Source: Acidaminococcus hominis (lineage in GTDB: Bacteria; Bacillota; Negativicutes; Acidaminococcales; Acidaminococcaceae). From it: 64,000 nt of DNA. The position numbers were made by a program, and so were the translations under genes. Where the stretch lies: NCBI RefSeq assembly GCF_900291475.1, contig NZ_OLMM01000002.1:121183-185182 (forward strand). Reading direction: 5' to 3'. Below, piece by piece: positions 24,296 through 35,647 of the stretch. Every line of letters starts with the position of its first letter. The first letter of the stretch is position 1. The notes under the pieces are model-generated. The model was given only the letters and a program-made list of their open reading frames with translations. It did no database searches and was not told the DNA's origin.

Positions 24296-25225
24296 TTATT
24301 GGCCGTAGGCAAGCAGGGACTCTCCTTTGCGTACGCCTAAGGCAACAGTTTGGTACAAAATCACCCCGTCATACTGGGCCCGCACTTCCTGGAGGAGGCT
24401 GCCGGTCAGGGTTTCCAGCTTTCCCAACAGTTCTCCCTGGGAGATGGTTGCGCCCGGGCTTTTTACCGGCTGCCAAAAGCCTGGAGCCTCTGCTTCCACA
24501 TAGGAGGCCCTGCACAATTTTCGCTGAATCTGGGGCTGTACCCTGCCAGGTAAAATAGCCAGGTGCTGCAGCAGTGCCCGTACGTCCCGGCAGGCGTCCT
24601 GCACCTCCCCTTCCGACCAGGCTCCCCTGCCGCCCCGTTCCAAAAGCAGGGAAGGGATATTTTGCTGCACGGCCCAGCTGTACAGCCCATTCCGGGCCTG
24701 GGAGGGTACTTGGTACGGGACCGCCAACACCTGGGCGGCTTTTTCTGCCGCCTGATTTACAGCTGGCGTTCCTCCGGCCGGAACAAACACCAGGGGTTCC
24801 AGTGCTTCGTTCCAGTCTCCTCCGTGCAAATCCAAAAGGAAGTCGGCTGCCGGATACAAAGCGGCCTCCAGGGCCCAGGCCAGCCGGGCTGAAAGGGAGC
24901 CCTCCGGATTTCCCGGAAAGGCCCTGTTCAGGTTGAGGCCGTCCTCCGGCACCACCTGCTTGCTGCCTGCATAAAAGGCACTGGGATTCGCCAGCGGCAG
25001 CAAAACAACACTGCCGGACAGGGTTTCCGGGTCCAGCTCCTGGGCCAGCCTGCGCAGGGCCTGGATGCCCACATACTCGCAGCCGTGAACTCCGGCTGTT
25101 ACCACAAGGGTTTTTCCTGGCTTTTTCCCACAAAAGCAAAAAGCGGTTAACGGCGCAGCTCCCGGTACCGGAACCGCCGCTGGTTTCTGCTCTCCGGGCA
25201 AAAGTTGGGTTCCGCAAAAAATCAT
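24296..25225 (-). CDS. AstE/AspA-family deacylase (M14-type zinc hydrolase)
   Basis: A 309-residue member of the succinylglutamate desuccinylase/aspartoacylase family, zinc enzymes that remove acyl groups from N-acyl amino acids or related small molecules. Zinc ligands are visible in AGVHGCEYVG (His and Glu of HxxE) and in LLDLHGGD (His); GLNLNRAFPG contains the substrate Arg. A C-terminal domain of about 90 residues ends in a beta-barrel-like stretch. The ATG overlaps the stop of the NikE-like gene (ATGA), so it is translationally coupled to the importer. That suggests the imported compound is acylated or peptide-like and is opened in the cytoplasm. Confidence 0.82.
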   Translation of the reverse strand: MIFCGTQLLPGEQKPAAVPVPGAAPLTAFCFCGKKPGKTLVVTAGVHGCEYVGIQALRRLAQELDPETLSGSVVLLPLANPSAFYAGSKQVVPEDGLNLNRAFPGNPEGSLSARLAWALEAALYPAADFLLDLHGGDWNEALEPLVFVPAGGTPAVNQAAEKAAQVLAVPYQVPSQARNGLYSWAVQQNIPSLLLERGGRGAWSEGEVQDACRDVRALLQHLAILPGRVQPQIQRKLCRASYVEAEAPGFWQPVKSPGATISQGELLGKLETLTGSLLQEVRAQYDGVILYQTVALGVRKGESLLAYGQ

Positions 25226-26025
25226 ACGGCCTCCTCCGCAGCCCGGTCTTCCAACGGAATAATGGCTTCCAGCAACTTCCTGGCATAGGGGTCCCGGGTA
25301 CTGCCCAGTTGTTCCACCGACAGATATTCCGTTACCCGGCCCCGGTACAGAAAGAGGACCTCATCGCACAGATAGGTAACGGACGTCAAATCATGGGTAA
25401 TAAACACATAGGTCAGGCCCAGTTTCCGTTTCAATTTCTGCAGCAGGTCCATTATCTGCACCTGGGTATGGGCATCCAGGGAAGAAATGGCCTCATCAAA
25501 GAGAATCACTTCCGGCTGGCAGGCCACAGCCCGGGCAATGCACACTCGCTGCAGCTGTCCCCCAGAAAGCTCATGGGGGAACCGGTCCGCCAGGGCGGCG
25601 GGCAGCCCGGCCAGCTCCAGCAGCTTGGCCGTTTCCTCCTCCCGCGCGACCTTATGGCCTTCCCGGCGCTCCCGGACCCTCAAACCTTCCCCGATAATAT
25701 CTTTTACCCGAAAGCGCGGATTGGCCGAGGTGGTATAATCCTGGAACACTATGCTCAGCTTATTCTGCAAATTTTTCCTCCCTGCCCGGGATTCGTAGAC
25801 CGACAAATCGTCCCACAGTACTTTTCCCTGATCCGGCTGCAAAAGGCCGCAGAGCACCCGTCCCAGGGTGGATTTCCCGCTTCCGGATTCGCCCAAAATC
25901 CCCAGGCAGGTTCCTTTCTGCACCTTTAGGGACACATCAAACAACACCTGCTGCCGGCTATGCCCAAACAGCGTATTTTGCCGTTCCCGGCGAAAACTTA
26001 CGGATATATTTTTTAGCTCAAGCAT
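25222..26025 (-). CDS. nikE: Nik/Dpp-type ABC transporter ATP-binding protein (second ATPase)
   Basis: ATPase subunit of a peptide/nickel-type importer. In 267 residues: Walker A GESGSGKSTLGR near 42, Q-loop IVFQDY, signature LSGGQLQRVCIARAV, Walker B VILFDEAISSLD and switch His in VFITHDLTS. The C-terminus is short, with no long oligopeptide-binding extension. AGGAG is 7 bases from the ATG. Its start overlaps the preceding ATPase gene by 8 bp. It is the fifth transporter gene in the order A-B-C-D-E, followed by the deacylase gene. Confidence 0.88.
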   Translation of the reverse strand: MLELKNISVSFRRERQNTLFGHSRQQVLFDVSLKVQKGTCLGILGESGSGKSTLGRVLCGLLQPDQGKVLWDDLSVYESRAGRKNLQNKLSIVFQDYTTSANPRFRVKDIIGEGLRVRERREGHKVAREEETAKLLELAGLPAALADRFPHELSGGQLQRVCIARAVACQPEVILFDEAISSLDAHTQVQIMDLLQKLKRKLGLTYVFITHDLTSVTYLCDEVLFLYRGRVTEYLSVEQLGSTRDPYARKLLEAIIPLEDRAAEEAV

Positions 26026-26857
26026 ATCCCTGCTCCTTTCCTTTACCCTGCAGCACCCTTTGGTACCGTTCCATAACCTCTGCCCTTTTTCCCACCAAAA
26101 GCCGCGTGTAGGGATCTTTGGCGTGGTGAAGAATCTGATAGAAACTGCCCCGGTCCACCACCTGGCCCTGGCTGAGCACCACCAGCCGGTCTGCTACCCG
26201 GGAAATGGCGTTCAGGTCATGGGAAACAAAGACCAGGGCCGTTCCCTTCTCCTCCTTGATTTTCAGCAGCTCAGCCAAAATTTCCACCTGGGTTATGGCA
26301 TCAATGGCGGTAGTGGGCTCGTCGGCAATCAGAAGCGCCGGCTCCAGGGCCGCTGCAATGCCGATCATAATCCGCTGCAGCATTCCTCCGGACAGTTGGT
26401 GGAGATATTTTTCCAGCACTTCTTCCGGCTGGTGGATGCGCATTTTTTCCAATACTGTCAGGGAGCGCTCCCGAATCTCTCCCTTTCTCCAGTTTCCGTG
26501 GGCCGCAAAGGTTTCAGCCAGCTGGCTGCCAATCCTGTACAGCGGGTCAAAACAGGTCATGGGGTTTTGCAAAATAATCCCCACCTTGCCGCCCCGCAGA
26601 CGGCGCAGCTCTTCACTGGACTTGGTAAGCAGCTCTTGCCCCTGAAACTGGACGCTGCCCGTTACCTGAAAGCTGCTGTCCAAAAGGCCCATGGCCGCTT
26701 TCAGGGTCAGGGACTTGCCGCTGCCGGATTCCCCCAGAATGCCCAGGCATTCCCCAGGCGCCACAGAAAAGGAAACGTTTCTTACCAAGGGAACCAGCAG
26801 CCCCTTCCGGCCTTTTAGCTGCACCTCCAGGTTTTCCACCTGAAATAGGGGTTTCAT
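26018..26857 (-). CDS. nikD: Nik/Dpp-type ABC transporter ATP-binding protein (first ATPase)
   Basis: The first of the paired ATPases of the importer (279 residues). Walker A is GESGSGKSLTLK, Q-loop IILQNPMTCFDP, signature LSGGMLQRIMIGIA, Walker B LLIADEPTTAID and switch VFVSHDLNAI. The frame continues upstream, but the ATG at 26857 has GGAGG about 7 bases before it and overlaps the permease stop as ATGA. Together with the next gene it would form the heterodimeric motor on the inner face of the membrane. Confidence 0.88.
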   Translation of the reverse strand: MKPLFQVENLEVQLKGRKGLLVPLVRNVSFSVAPGECLGILGESGSGKSLTLKAAMGLLDSSFQVTGSVQFQGQELLTKSSEELRRLRGGKVGIILQNPMTCFDPLYRIGSQLAETFAAHGNWRKGEIRERSLTVLEKMRIHQPEEVLEKYLHQLSGGMLQRIMIGIAAALEPALLIADEPTTAIDAITQVEILAELLKIKEEKGTALVFVSHDLNAISRVADRLVVLSQGQVVDRGSFYQILHHAKDPYTRLLVGKRAEVMERYQRVLQGKGKEQGYA

Positions 26858-27678
26858 GATTCCACCTCCTTTGGATCCAGCACATCCCGCAGGGCATCTC
26901 CCATGAGATTGAAACAGCATACCAAGGAAACCAGGGCAACGCCCGGCGCCAGCATCTGGATGGGATTCCGAGTCAATACATCTTTGGCCTCATTGAGCAT
27001 GGCACCCCATTCAGGAACCGGTGCCTGCACTCCCAGCCCTAAAAAGGACAGGGTGGAAATATTGATAATCGCCCAGCCCACGTCCAAGGAAGCCAGCACC
27101 GCCAGGTCGGAAGTAATGGAGGGCAGCAGGTGGCGGAAAAGGATAAAACGCTCCGGCATACCCACACAGCGGGAAAACTGCACAAAATTCATATCCCGAT
27201 ACTGCATAACCCCAGTGCGGATCATCCGGGCATACCAGGCCCATTTGATGAAGATATTGGCAATAATCACATTCTGGACGTTAATACCCAAAAGCCCGAC
27301 CACTGCAAAAACCATAATCTGGCTGGGAAAGGACAGCATCACGTCCACCACCCGCATAATGACCTCTTCCACCACACCCCGGAAATAACCGGCCATAATG
27401 CCCAGCACAGCTCCCAAGCTGATGGTTCCCAGCATGGTCAAAAGGGCCAGGCCCAGGGTGGGCCGAATGCCGTAAATCAGCCGGGAGAGGACGCAGCGGC
27501 CCAAATGATCGGTACCCAGCGGATAGGTCAGGCTATAGGGCCGAAACTTTTGTAGGATATTGGTGACATAGGGGTCATGGGGCGCCAAAACCGGAGCCAA
27601 TAAGCCAATCAGGGCAATAAGCAGTACAAAAGCCACGGTCAGCACCGCTGCCCGATTGTTCCAAAACCGTTTTCCCAT
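26854..27678 (-). CDS. nikC: Nik/Dpp-type ABC transporter permease (NikC-like)
   Basis: A 274-residue inner-membrane permease of the DppC/NikC type: an N-terminal helix (about 10-33), a periplasmic loop with YPLGTDHLGRCVLSRLIYG, then five helices. The ATPase-docking EAA-type loop is seen in ARCVGMPERFILFRHLLP-like form (SRCVGMPERFILFRHL). GGGAGG precedes the ATG by 7 bases, 2 bp after the stop of the other permease gene. It pairs with the NikB-like subunit to make the translocation path. Confidence 0.86.
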   Translation of the reverse strand: MGKRFWNNRAAVLTVAFVLLIALIGLLAPVLAPHDPYVTNILQKFRPYSLTYPLGTDHLGRCVLSRLIYGIRPTLGLALLTMLGTISLGAVLGIMAGYFRGVVEEVIMRVVDVMLSFPSQIMVFAVVGLLGINVQNVIIANIFIKWAWYARMIRTGVMQYRDMNFVQFSRCVGMPERFILFRHLLPSITSDLAVLASLDVGWAIINISTLSFLGLGVQAPVPEWGAMLNEAKDVLTRNPIQMLAPGVALVSLVCCFNLMGDALRDVLDPKEVES

Positions 27679-27680
27679 GG

Positions 27681-28619
27681 TTAGACCTCCCTTCTGAGTC
27701 TGGGATCCGATACCGTTTGCAGCACGTCGAATACCAGATTAAAGACCACAAATAAAATTCCAATAAACAGCACATAGGTTTGAATTACCGGCAAATCCCG
27801 GTTAAAGATGGAGCTGATGCACAACGTACCCAGCCCCGGCCAGGAAAACACATTTTCCACCACAATGGTTCCGGCAATCATCTGGGGAATGCTCATTCCC
27901 ATGGCCACAATGCAGGTATGCATGGAATTTTTCAGGATATGCTTCACCAAAATGGCCCGCTGGGGCAATCCCCGAACCTGGGCATAGAGTACGTAGTCCC
28001 GCTTCATATTTTCCAGCATATTGTTGCGAATCAGCCGGATGTAGGTGGAAATATAGCTCAGGGCTACCGTAAAGGCCGGCAGAACCAAATGCTGCCAGGT
28101 ACCATTCCCATTAGTAGGCAGCAGCCGCAGCTTGACGCTGACGCCCCACATCAGCAGCAGCCCCACCCAATAGGCGGGCATGGCAGTGGAGATAAAGACC
28201 AGGGCCCGCATGCCCCGGTCGAACCAGCCATCCTTGTACACCGCACACAGGAACCCAATGGGAATGCTCAGCACCAGTACAATCACAAAAGACGCCGCCG
28301 CCAATTGGAGGGTGGCCGGCAGGCAGCGGGCCAGTTCCCCAGCCACCGTCCGGGCCGGGTTTACATAGCTGACGCCAAAGTCCCCTTGCAGGCAGCCCAG
28401 TACCCAGTCGGTATAACGCACCAAAAAGGGTTTGTTCAGGCCCAGTTCGGCTTCTGCCTTGGCAATGGCCTCAGGGGTAATGATGGGGGTCTGCTGGATG
28501 CGCAGCACCACCTCCGCCGGATTGGAGGGGATCAGGTTGATAAATACGAAACAGACAAAAGAAATGGCCAAAAGCAGCGGAATGGCCATCAGCAGCCTGT
28601 GGATTACGTAACGTTTCAT
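27681..28619 (-). CDS. nikB: Nik/Dpp-type ABC transporter permease (NikB-like)
   Basis: A 312-residue permease that resembles E. coli NikB more than DppB in the stretches I remember: RYVIHRLLM at the start, RCLPATLQLAAAS, GTWQHLVLPA, IGGT-like IAGTIVVENVFSWPGLG and SSIFNRDLPVIQ near the end. Six membrane segments are predicted. The ribosome site is poor: the clear AAGGAG lies about 20 bases before the ATG. A hairpin lies between the binding-protein gene and this gene, which may lower expression of the membrane components relative to the binding protein. Confidence 0.86.
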   Translation of the reverse strand: MKRYVIHRLLMAIPLLLAISFVCFVFINLIPSNPAEVVLRIQQTPIITPEAIAKAEAELGLNKPFLVRYTDWVLGCLQGDFGVSYVNPARTVAGELARCLPATLQLAAASFVIVLVLSIPIGFLCAVYKDGWFDRGMRALVFISTAMPAYWVGLLLMWGVSVKLRLLPTNGNGTWQHLVLPAFTVALSYISTYIRLIRNNMLENMKRDYVLYAQVRGLPQRAILVKHILKNSMHTCIVAMGMSIPQMIAGTIVVENVFSWPGLGTLCISSIFNRDLPVIQTYVLFIGILFVVFNLVFDVLQTVSDPRLRREV

Positions 28620-28656
28620 GGTATTTTCACTTCTCTTTCTCTCCTTACAGCAAGAA

Positions 28657-28678
28657 AGCCGCTCCTTGCGAAGCGGCC
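28657..28678 (-). terminator. Intercistronic hairpin between nikA-like and nikB-like genes
   Basis: GCCGCT/AAGCGGC arms form a compact hairpin followed on the minus strand by TTTCTT, a leaky-terminator or mRNA-stabilising layout often seen between a binding-protein gene and its permease genes. Confidence 0.5.
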
Positions 28679-28685
28679 CCCTGGA

Positions 28686-30260
28686 TTACTCAAAATACAT
28701 ACTGGCAAAATCTACGTCGTATTGGTCGATGCCAAAGTGGACACCCTTCAATTTGGACGTATAGAGCGCCTTGTTGGTTTCATAGGTCAGCGGCAGGTAG
28801 ACCGCGTCCTCGTGCAGCCGGGTCAGCACAAACTTGTACAATTCCTGCCGCTTGGCTTCATCGGTGGACGTGAGAATATCCGTAATGGCCTGGTCAATCT
28901 CTGCCTTATCTGCCAGCCCCTGCTGGGTTGCAAAGTCCCCGTACACCGGAGCCCGCATGGCCGCCAGAGAAGACTGGGGATCATAGGGCATGCCCCAGCA
29001 GATATTAAAGACCATATCGAAATTCCCGGCCTTCATATTATCCCGGTAGGACTGTTCTTCCTCCCCATGGATATTAAGAGCAATGCCCAGTTTCCGATAC
29101 TCACTTTGGAGATACTCGGCAATGGTTTTCTCCGTTACACTGTCACTGTTGTAGAGCAGATCCAGTTCCAGTTTCTGGCCGTCCTTGGCCCGCAGCCCAT
29201 CGCTGGCCATAACCCAGCCAGCCTGGTCCAGCAGCTGGCCCGCCGCTGCGGTATTATAGGCATAGGGCTCCAGCCCCACATTGCAGTAAGGAACGGTAGG
29301 GGAATACAAGGTATCCGCCGCCGGTTCCAGTCCGTAAAAAATACCCTCTGAAATGGCCTTCCGGTTGGTGGCGTGCTGAAGGGCTTTCCGAACCGCACTT
29401 TCCCCTAAGATTTCATGGGTGGTATTGAAGACAATGTGCCGGGTAGAGGTGGGATTGGACAGCTGGGTGGTAAATTTATCGCTTTTCACATACTGGCTGA
29501 TGGCATCTGCATCCAACATATTCTTGCCAAAAATCAGGTCAATTTCCCCATTTTCCAGCGCCATGATCCGGGTTTGGTTATCCGGAATGACCTTTACAGT
29601 AATTTTCTTCAGGGCCGGCTTCTTACCCCAGTATTTTTCGTTCCGTTCAAATACAGCGTATTCGTCAGTGACAAAGTCTTTCAGTACATAGGGCCCCGTC
29701 CCAATATAACTGGTTACCCCATCCTTGGTGCTGCCGTTTTTCATGCTTTTGGGGGAAATCATGGCAAAGGGCCGGATGCAGGCCAATTCCGTCAGCATGG
29801 GATAATAGGGCTCGCTCATTTCAATAACAAAGGTATCCTTGTCCGGAGCAGAAACACTGGTGAGCAAATTCATCATTTCCAGCCAGGTATGCCGTTCCCG
29901 GTTTTCCAAAATAGCATTAAAGTTGGCCAAAATGGCGTTGGCATCACAGGGCGTTCCATCGGAGAAGGTAACCCCCGGACGAATCTTAAAGGTGTAGGTC
30001 CGCCCGTCCGGACTGATGGTCCAGCTTTCCGCCAGACAGCCCACATACCCCTTTTCCGTATTGGTCACCAGGGTATCGTACAGCATGGACTGGGCGTACA
30101 TCTCCCCAGCGTACAAATGGGGATTCAGGTTCCGGATATCCCGGTAATTGACGTACACCAATTCATCTTTCTTTCCGCCTGCCGTTTTGCCTGCCCCGCC
30201 ATCGGCACCACAACCCGTAAATGCGGTCAGCAGCAGGACGCCGCCCAGCAGCGCCACCAA
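28686..30260 (-). CDS. nikA: NikA-like substrate-binding lipoprotein (start region interrupted by a stop codon)
   Basis: A 524-residue (from TTG) SBP family 5 protein that closely follows E. coli NikA: NLNPHLYAGEMYAQSM near 45, LSEPYYPMLTELA-like SEPYYPMLTEL, GTGPYVL, NEKYWG, TLYSPTVPYCNVGL, GEEEQSYRDNM and PYDPQSSLAAMRAP. At the place of NikA His416 (FHRTWG) it has Asn, about residue 419 (FNICWG), so plain nickel-histidine binding is doubtful. A signal with TGC lipobox follows the start. The only good ribosome site serves an ATG at 30275 whose frame is ATG AAA AAA TAA, then continues ATT TTG GTG into this gene. Translation would need reinitiation at TTG/ATT, or the stop is a mutation or sequencing error. 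Confidence 0.82.
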   Translation of the reverse strand: MVALLGGVLLLTAFTGCGADGGAGKTAGGKKDELVYVNYRDIRNLNPHLYAGEMYAQSMLYDTLVTNTEKGYVGCLAESWTISPDGRTYTFKIRPGVTFSDGTPCDANAILANFNAILENRERHTWLEMMNLLTSVSAPDKDTFVIEMSEPYYPMLTELACIRPFAMISPKSMKNGSTKDGVTSYIGTGPYVLKDFVTDEYAVFERNEKYWGKKPALKKITVKVIPDNQTRIMALENGEIDLIFGKNMLDADAISQYVKSDKFTTQLSNPTSTRHIVFNTTHEILGESAVRKALQHATNRKAISEGIFYGLEPAADTLYSPTVPYCNVGLEPYAYNTAAAGQLLDQAGWVMASDGLRAKDGQKLELDLLYNSDSVTEKTIAEYLQSEYRKLGIALNIHGEEEQSYRDNMKAGNFDMVFNICWGMPYDPQSSLAAMRAPVYGDFATQQGLADKAEIDQAITDILTSTDEAKRQELYKFVLTRLHEDAVYLPLTYETNKALYTSKLKGVHFGIDQYDVDFASMYFE

Positions 30261-30263
30261 AAT

Positions 30264-30266
30264 TTA
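30264..30266 (-). other. In-frame TAA at codon 4 of the nikA-like gene
   Basis: Downstream of GGAGG (30281-30285) and the ATG at 30273-30275 the codons read AAA AAA TAA ATT TTG GTG GCG. A single-base change from AAA to TAA would explain it and would restore a normal lipoprotein start (Met-Lys-Lys-Lys-Ile-Leu-Val). Confidence 0.85.
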
Positions 30267-30358
30267 TTTTTTCATAAGGACCTCCTGACAAATGTTGCGT
30301 ACATATCATACTTTGTCAGAATACACTGGTTAGTCGAAACTTACTAGGCCCGAATTTT

Positions 30359-30386
30359 TTATAGAAATCTATAACGAATCGTTATA
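30359..30386. promoter_or_regulatory. Overlapping palindromes, candidate LysR operator of the Nik-like operon
   Basis: TTATAGAAATCTATAA (30359-30374) is a perfect palindrome, and TATAACGAATCGTTATA (30370-30386) is a palindrome around one central base that contains the LysR consensus T-N11-A. Both lie just after the LysR stop and about 85-115 bp before the nikA-like start, in the only non-coding gap of the region. Confidence 0.55.
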
Positions 30387-30388
30387 CC

Positions 30389-31291
30389 CTATAAAATCTT
30401 TGCCAATTCCTGGATCAGCCACTGGGCTTGGGGAGACAAGGGCCGCTCAGGGTCCTGCACATACCCCAGCTGAAGAAAAGGCTCACAGTTCTCGATGGCA
30501 AGGGGCTTGATGGCATACTGCTCATAGGGCTCGTGCATAAAATTAAGCCCCAGACTGCAAACATCGGTGTGCAGCAGCATATCAATCAGCAAATGGTCAC
30601 TATTGGTATAAACCACGTTCTGCAGCAATTTAGGGTCAATGACCCCCATGCTCACATGCTCCAAATGGTGCTCCATGGAGAAAAAGTCCCGCACGCCCCG
30701 CATAAACTTCAGCTTGTGCAGGTCCGCAAAATCCACACTGTTTTCCTGGTACAAGGGATGCTTGGGCCCCACATAGACGCAGATGCTTTTTACGCTCAGC
30801 GGGATAAATTCCAGCTTCTTGTGGGACAAAATATGCTGGAAGGCCGCTGCCTGCTTTTGGGCCACATAGACAATCCCCACTTCGGAAATCCCCTGCTGTA
30901 CCTGCTCCGTAATTTCTTCCACCGTTCCTTCGTGGTGTTCAATATGAATGTCCGCCCCCCAGGTTTTGTAGAAATCCACCAAAAGCCGGGCCACCATATT
31001 GCTGGGATAGGTGGATACCCTGAGGCTTTCCTGCTCATCAGGAATGGCCAGGGAAGCAATGGTAGCCGTGGTTTTCAAAATCAGCCGGGCATATTCCAGC
31101 ACGGTCTTGCCATACACCGTAGGCTGCACCCCTTTGCCGCTGCGAATCAGCAGGTTTCTCCCCAGCTCATGCTCCAAAGTACGTATGGTCTTGCTTACAT
31201 TGGGCTGGGTCGTATACATACAGGCCGCAGCCTGGGATAAACTGCCTCGCTCACAGGCAGTGACAAAAATCTCCAGTTGTTTGATGTCCAT
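30389..31291 (-). CDS. LysR-family regulator upstream of the Nik-like operon
   Basis: A 300-residue LysR-type protein. The helix-turn-helix is in residues about 3-62 (IFVTACERGSLSQAAACMYT ... QPNVSKTIRTLEHELG), followed by an effector domain from about residue 90, with VGIVYVAQKQAAAF, VYVGPKHPLY and LLHTDVCSLGLNF. AAGGAG lies 8 bases before the ATG. It is transcribed in the same direction as the importer genes, 113 bp before them, with two palindromes in the gap, so it is likely their regulator. A further inverted repeat (CCTATA...TATAGG, 31352-31387) lies upstream of its own start and could be an autoregulatory site. Confidence 0.85.
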   Translation of the reverse strand: MDIKQLEIFVTACERGSLSQAAACMYTTQPNVSKTIRTLEHELGRNLLIRSGKGVQPTVYGKTVLEYARLILKTTATIASLAIPDEQESLRVSTYPSNMVARLLVDFYKTWGADIHIEHHEGTVEEITEQVQQGISEVGIVYVAQKQAAAFQHILSHKKLEFIPLSVKSICVYVGPKHPLYQENSVDFADLHKLKFMRGVRDFFSMEHHLEHVSMGVIDPKLLQNVVYTNSDHLLIDMLLHTDVCSLGLNFMHEPYEQYAIKPLAIENCEPFLQLGYVQDPERPLSPQAQWLIQELAKIL

Positions 31292-34188: not shown

Positions 34189-35647
34189 GCCCGATGCCCC
34201 CCTACCTGCTGGTTGCGTTCTATGGTCATGCCGCCGGCACACAGATTGCTGCCCTTTAAAATGGAGTTTTTGCCAAACCGCTCCTTTAAAGCCAGTACCG
34301 TTTCCTGGAGCCGGTATTCCTTAAAGGGATCCTGCCAGGCGGATTCCTCCTGGGCAAACAAATCCGCTTCCTGGGGCCGGCTGCGCTCCTGGGAAACTGG
34401 CAGCACCCGTTCTGCCGTAAGGCTCACCTTGCGGAGCAGCAGCTGGGGATCCACAATTTTCCGATACAGCGCCAGGGCTTCCTGGGTAAGCACCTGCCCG
34501 GAGGCCGTGTATTGGAGCAGGGCCTGGGTGCCCCGGGCCGGAAAGGGCACCAGCCGGCCATAATGGTCCTGGGCCACCCGCCCCCGGTAGGAGCGCAGCC
34601 TTTCCAAGTCCTCCAGGTTGGACCGGTCATAGCCCAAATGCAGCACCAGCCGGTCCGTTACAAGGCCCTTGCGTACCAGGTCCAGGGCCAACTGATCCGC
34701 CATTTCCCAAACAATCAGCCCCGCCTGCTCTGCTGTATAGGCATGCTGGAGCACCTGCCCTGACCCCAGGCTGGAGCTTTGGGGGTGTATTTTTTGATGT
34801 CCTCCAGGGTGCAGGGTTCCCAACCCCAGGCATGGTCAATGAGCAGCTCCCCATTGACCCCAAACAGCCGGTACAGCAGGTCCTCGTCCACAAGGGACAT
34901 CCTGGCCACATCCCCCAGGGTATACATCCCGTACTGGGCCAGCTTCCGGGCAATCCCCGGACCAATCCGCCAAAAATCGGTAAGCGGCCGATGCTCCCAC
35001 AGCTTTTCCCGGTAACTTTCCTCCGTCAGGGCCGCAATGCGCACCCCGTCCTTTCCTGCGGGCAGATGCTTGGCTACAATATCCATGGCCACCTTGCACA
35101 GGTACAGGTTGGTACCAATGCCGGCCGTAGCCGTAATCCCCGTTTCCTGAAGCACCGCCAGCTGATAGGGCGTCAGCCCATAGGTTTCCAAATAAGGGGT
35201 CAAGTCCAGCAGCACCTCATCCACCGAATACACGTGGATATCTTCCGGAGCCAAAAAGCGCAGATATACGCCGTAGACCCGGACACTGTACTCCATATAA
35301 AGCGCCATCCGGGGCATCGCCGTAATATAGGTCAATTTCTGGGAAGGATCCGCCTTCAGTACCCGGTCGGAAGCCGATTCTCCCTGGAAGTGCCGCCCCG
35401 GCGCCATGGCCCGCCGGTCCGCATTGATTTCCCCCACCTGCCGGATTACCTCGAACAAACGGGGCCGTCCAGGTACCCCACGGGCCTTGAGAGCCGGGGA
35501 AACCGCCAAGCAGATGGTTTTATCCGTCCGGGACTGATCCGCCACCACCAGGCACGCATCCAAGGGATTCAGCCCCCGTTCCACACATTCCACCGAAGCA
35601 TAAAAAGATTTTAAGTCAATGGCCGCATAGACCTTTCCTTTCGCCAT
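34185..35647 (-). pseudogene. Y-family DNA polymerase (UmuC/UvrX-like), interrupted by a frameshift
   Basis: A translesion polymerase read in two frames. Part one (from the ATG at 35647) has IDLKSFYASVEC, YSVDEVLLDLTPY (catalytic Asp-Glu), TATAGIGTNLYLCKVAMDI and PLTDFWRIGPG, and stops making sense after KKYTP. Part two continues SSSLGSGQVLQHAYT, the expected 'SxGxGQVL' little-finger start, on to RNQQVGGHRA at 34185. The switch falls at a run of five Gs at 34781-34785 (five Cs in the coding strand); one more C gives a continuous protein of about 487 residues. Either a real inactivating or phase-variable slip, or a sequencing error. yolD overlaps its end, and an SOS box lies before its start. 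Confidence 0.85.

Follow-up and report, generated by a model that had tools for sequence, protein, structure and literature searches.

The nikA-like gene in the window analysed here (64,000 nt of Acidaminococcus hominis contig NZ_OLMM01000002.1) has a stop as its fourth codon, directly behind a well-placed start, and the rest of its reading frame is intact. We put the probability that a private nonsense mutation has recently arisen here, in an accessory nikA, at roughly 0.63. Most likely, the codon-4 stop makes an ordinary broken allele and not a new kind of gene control.

Inspection of the sequence revealed that positions 30286-30255 of the minus strand read AGGAGG-TCCTT-ATG-AAA-AAA-TAA-ATT-TTG-GTG. 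The start region and the gene behind it comprise the following elements:

30281-30286, minus strand: Shine-Dalgarno (SD) sequence AGGAGG, followed by a 5-nt spacer and then ATG
30264-30275, minus strand: ATG AAA AAA TAA, the original start and the in-frame stop at codon 4, as read in the sequence
30255-30263, minus strand: ATT TTG GTG, the sole possible restart codons nearby, 17-23 nt from the SD
28686-30260, minus strand: rest of the nikA-like gene, intact, with 524 aa counted from TTG (TIGR02294, 599 bits; PF00496; dN/dS)

The individual codons are located at 30275-30273 (ATG), 30266-30264 (TAA), 30263-30261 (ATT), 30260-30258 (TTG) and 30257-30255 (GTG). When the sequence was re-inspected, the coordinates and the description of ATG AAA AAA TAA and ATT TTG GTG given in an earlier note on this DNA proved correct, as did its claim that ATG is the sole well-placed start: the AGGAGG at 30286-30281 lies 5 nt from ATG, versus 17, 20 and 23 nt from ATT, TTG and GTG, none of which has an SD of its own. 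The ATG frame stays open past the TAA, with 524 codons counted from TTG, until the stop ending at 28686. The intact signal peptide read from a well-placed start that is usual for NikA is therefore broken here by the TAA at codon 4. The product read from TTG begins MVALLGGVLLLTAFTGC and carries no positive charge ahead of its hydrophobic stretch.

This open frame is not a chance one, since a profile search matched its product to the nickel_nikA model TIGR02294 at 599 bits (cut-off 393, residues 30-521) and since solved NikA structures match it over nearly the whole length (best 4oer, E 1.7e-138). In Pfam it is assigned to SBP_bac_5 (PF00496). The gene is part of a seven-gene cassette on one strand (24296-31291, minus) with the order LysR-NikA-NikB-NikC-ATPase-ATPase-AstE/AspA-type deacylase. 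Its other elements are:

30389-31291, minus strand: LysR-family regulator (profile and Pfam matches, locus comparison)
30276-30388, minus strand: upstream region with a LysR-type palindrome and a GTAAG...CTAAC motif, common to relatives
27681-28619, minus strand: NikB-type permease, intact (NF045469 above cut-off)
26854-27678, minus strand: NikC-type permease, intact (NF045473 above cut-off)
26018-26920, minus strand: NikD/CntD-type ATPase, intact (profile and Pfam matches, locus comparison)
25222-26025, minus strand: NikE-type ATPase, intact (profile and Pfam matches, locus comparison)
24296-25225, minus strand: AstE/AspA-type deacylase, the last gene of the cassette (PF24827)

Like NikA, the product thus has a full-length match above the curated cut-off and is encoded within a NikBCDE-type operon, both permeases of which pass nickel/cobalt models (NF045469 and NF045473). 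It differs in that the frame opened by the well-placed start here runs into a stop at codon 4, and its nickel cargo is putative. The two ATPases match the NikD/E and CntD/F models with scores below the cut-off. About 30 loci, the majority of them in Clostridia, share most of this gene order, and relatives of the cassette also occur in Negativicutes, Fusobacterium and Sutterella. The constant presence of the deacylase is a hint that the transporter may carry an acylated compound or a metallophore and not free nickel.

About 60 close nikA homologues with identity levels of 62-85%, a few of them ending at contig edges, were compared with the gene of the window, and a stop at the matching position was absent from all of them. 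Codon 4 encodes Lys or Arg in most of these relatives; the TAA therefore occupies a position where homologues have a sense codon, as stops in nonsense pseudogenes do. All 24 homologues that were aligned possess an ATG or GTG preceded by an SD and an uninterrupted signal peptide, nearly always with at least two Lys/Arg residues after the start, and a conserved leader peptide of the MKK-stop type was absent from every one of the aligned relatives. The upstream ATAAC-N7-GTTAT and GTAAG...CTAAC motifs have been retained both in relatives and at the window locus.

Within the genus, the gene was present in one of nine genomes; the other matches were paralogues with about 30% identity. Its nearest homologues (80-85% identity) belong to other clostridial families. 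Given this distribution, the nikA cassette is an accessory one and was probably acquired horizontally.

Selection on the frame behind the stop has been strong. Pairwise dN/dS between the nikA of the window and its relatives was 0.06-0.09, not far from the 0.035-0.075 obtained between the relatives, all these values being rough because synonymous sites are near saturation. The protein departs from two otherwise invariant columns, and other taxa from zero to seven. Neither relaxed selection nor further decay of the kind found in pseudogenes was revealed (dN/dS and the two column breaks being as above), and the operator motifs, the SD and all seven genes of the cassette are intact. From the lack of decay it follows that the stop is very recent, or does not inactivate the gene, or is not real; with operator, cassette and protein so well preserved, any disruption must be very young, and an absence of decay is what a very recent stop would be expected to give. 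Among the three options listed in the earlier note (inactivation, reinitiation and a sequencing error in the run of As), a recent inactivating mutation is thus the best supported: no relative has the stop, the locus is otherwise intact, and until recently the gene was under strong selection.

We infer the following course of events. A recent point mutation would have turned codon 4 of nikA into TAA, so that ribosomes loading at the strong SD would make the tripeptide MKK and terminate. Low amounts of NikA could still arise from rare readthrough, with the signal peptide kept, and from inefficient restart at TTG or GTG, with the charged n-region lost. NikA output is expected to be strongly reduced and the protein poorly exported, which would leave the transporter nearly without its binding protein. 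The allele resembles young bacterial nonsense pseudogenes in having one stop in an otherwise conserved frame together with an intact upstream region and operon. It differs from them in the position of the stop, at codon 4, and in that automatic annotation may call a 524-aa gene from TTG; here the loss of function is putative.

The organism could well tolerate losing this importer, since NiFe hydrogenase, urease alpha and CbiM were not detected in the genome and a single LarA-type match was found; on these gene contents, nickel demand looks small. There is a slim chance that the stop is instead a tolerated down-tuning allele, in which futile MKK cycles would throttle NikA and the trickle from readthrough or restart would suffice for a low nickel demand.

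Reinitiation after the stop was the second option of the earlier note. It supposes that, after MKK, translation resumes at one of the next three codons (ATT, TTG or GTG) and yields a reduced but useful amount of NikA. Possible restart codons do lie 3-9 nt past the stop, purifying selection on the frame has been strong to the present, and after termination a bacterial ribosome can travel more than 40 nt in either direction (PMC5972666). However, the start codon used for restart is the first with an SD-like sequence ahead of it (PMC5972666), and here that codon is the original ATG; the AGGAGG is 20 nt from TTG and is spaced for ATG. Since the ATG is the sole SD-preceded start within reach, futile recycling would be expected, with leaky restart only at TTG or GTG. 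In addition, the arrangement is not kept in any relative, and the restart product lacks the positively charged n-region typical of lipoprotein signals (PMC9360617). The locus shares with known termination-reinitiation (translational coupling, PMC5972666) a stop a few nucleotides ahead of possible start codons, but differs from it in that no separate SD serves the restart codons, the one ATG that has an SD is the very start that the stop interrupts, and relatives do not conserve the arrangement. We found in the literature no directly matching case of restart after a very early nonsense codon in bacteria. Overall, a functional reinitiation appears rather improbable.

Recoding, or programmed readthrough of UAA, would restore full-length NikA with its whole signal peptide, and the continuous frame would allow it. 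Nevertheless, ARAGORN detected no tRNA with a UAA-reading or other stop-reading anticodon in any of the genome stretches, so that a suppressor tRNA was rejected; the start motif is unique in the genome and the genus and is absent from relatives; and folding of the nikA leader RNA is unremarkable (z -0.64). Such recoding can hardly be the explanation. Slippage on the A6 run was also rejected, the downstream frame being already in phase with ATG.

The pattern GGAGG-N4-10-ATG-AAR-AAR-TAA occurs once in the genome and is absent from eight congeners. A wider screen of the genome stretches looked for SD-preceded ATGs whose frame meets a stop within 12 codons and then stays open for 120 codons or more, and revealed 14 such sites. 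Nine of the 13 sites other than nikA were scanned with Pfam: six had no family match, and in the remaining three the domain starts well inside the ORF (at residues 25, 48 and 121) and not directly after the stop. The exact nikA start region had no match in the viral_contigs scan.

The third option, a sequencing error in the stretch of As, fails in the form of an indel: gain or loss of a base in the A-run gives no readable frame through TAA into nikA, and the frame is unbroken across the site. What could still explain the TAA is an erroneous substitution in the assembled sequence, or a variant carried by a minority of the culture, the nikA of the organism being normal. False pseudogenes are known to arise from assembly errors (PMC11017572), and the lack of decay in the nikA ORF, its operator and the operon fits an artefact as well. 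Moreover, a single-base gap near 34770, adjoining an A6 run and a C5 run, splits a gene for a Y-family DNA polymerase (PF00817, PF11799; 34185-35647, minus strand) that lies 4.5 kb away; in all eight congeners this gene is a single open frame of 478-606 aa. The two lesions may be a coincidence or may reflect a locally poor consensus. Against an artefact, the assembly is a draft of few large contigs with 99.8% completeness, and of 32 gene places for which homologues were available, none but nikA had a true internal stop. A reference-free frameshift screen gave 695 candidates and is too noisy for a rate; Pfam analysis of the approximately 20 strongest revealed no clear split gene, many of them having no family match whatever. 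It should be mentioned that 32 places and about 20 candidates are too few to yield an error rate. On balance, a consensus artefact is unlikely, with an appreciable chance of being correct nonetheless.

The biological novelty of the stop is small and its value is that of a practical warning for annotation. By shifting the annotated start to TTG, a gene caller can hide a stop that lies only a few codons behind the true one, and the transporter would then be listed as working though it is possibly largely off. Should the allele be expressed after all, it would offer a natural test of the choice made by a post-termination ribosome between a return to its own SD and a downstream restart without one.

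Several minor features of the locus were also observed. The ATAAC-N7-GTTAT palindrome (30370-30392, minus strand) lies upstream of nikA, overlaps the 3' end of lysR and is kept in most relatives; it is likely the binding site of the adjoining LysR regulator. Directly upstream of the SD, and touching it, is an inverted repeat, CTGACAAA...TTTGTCAG (30283-30320, minus strand), which has no obvious conservation among relatives and forms the main hairpin in the predicted fold of the nikA leader. Finally, in one homologue (L076, position ~5929, Clostridia bacterium UC5.1-2E3) the ATG behind the SD is in a different frame from the remainder of the gene; this reflects either an independent frameshift or an error of the assembly, at almost the position that the stop has in the window.
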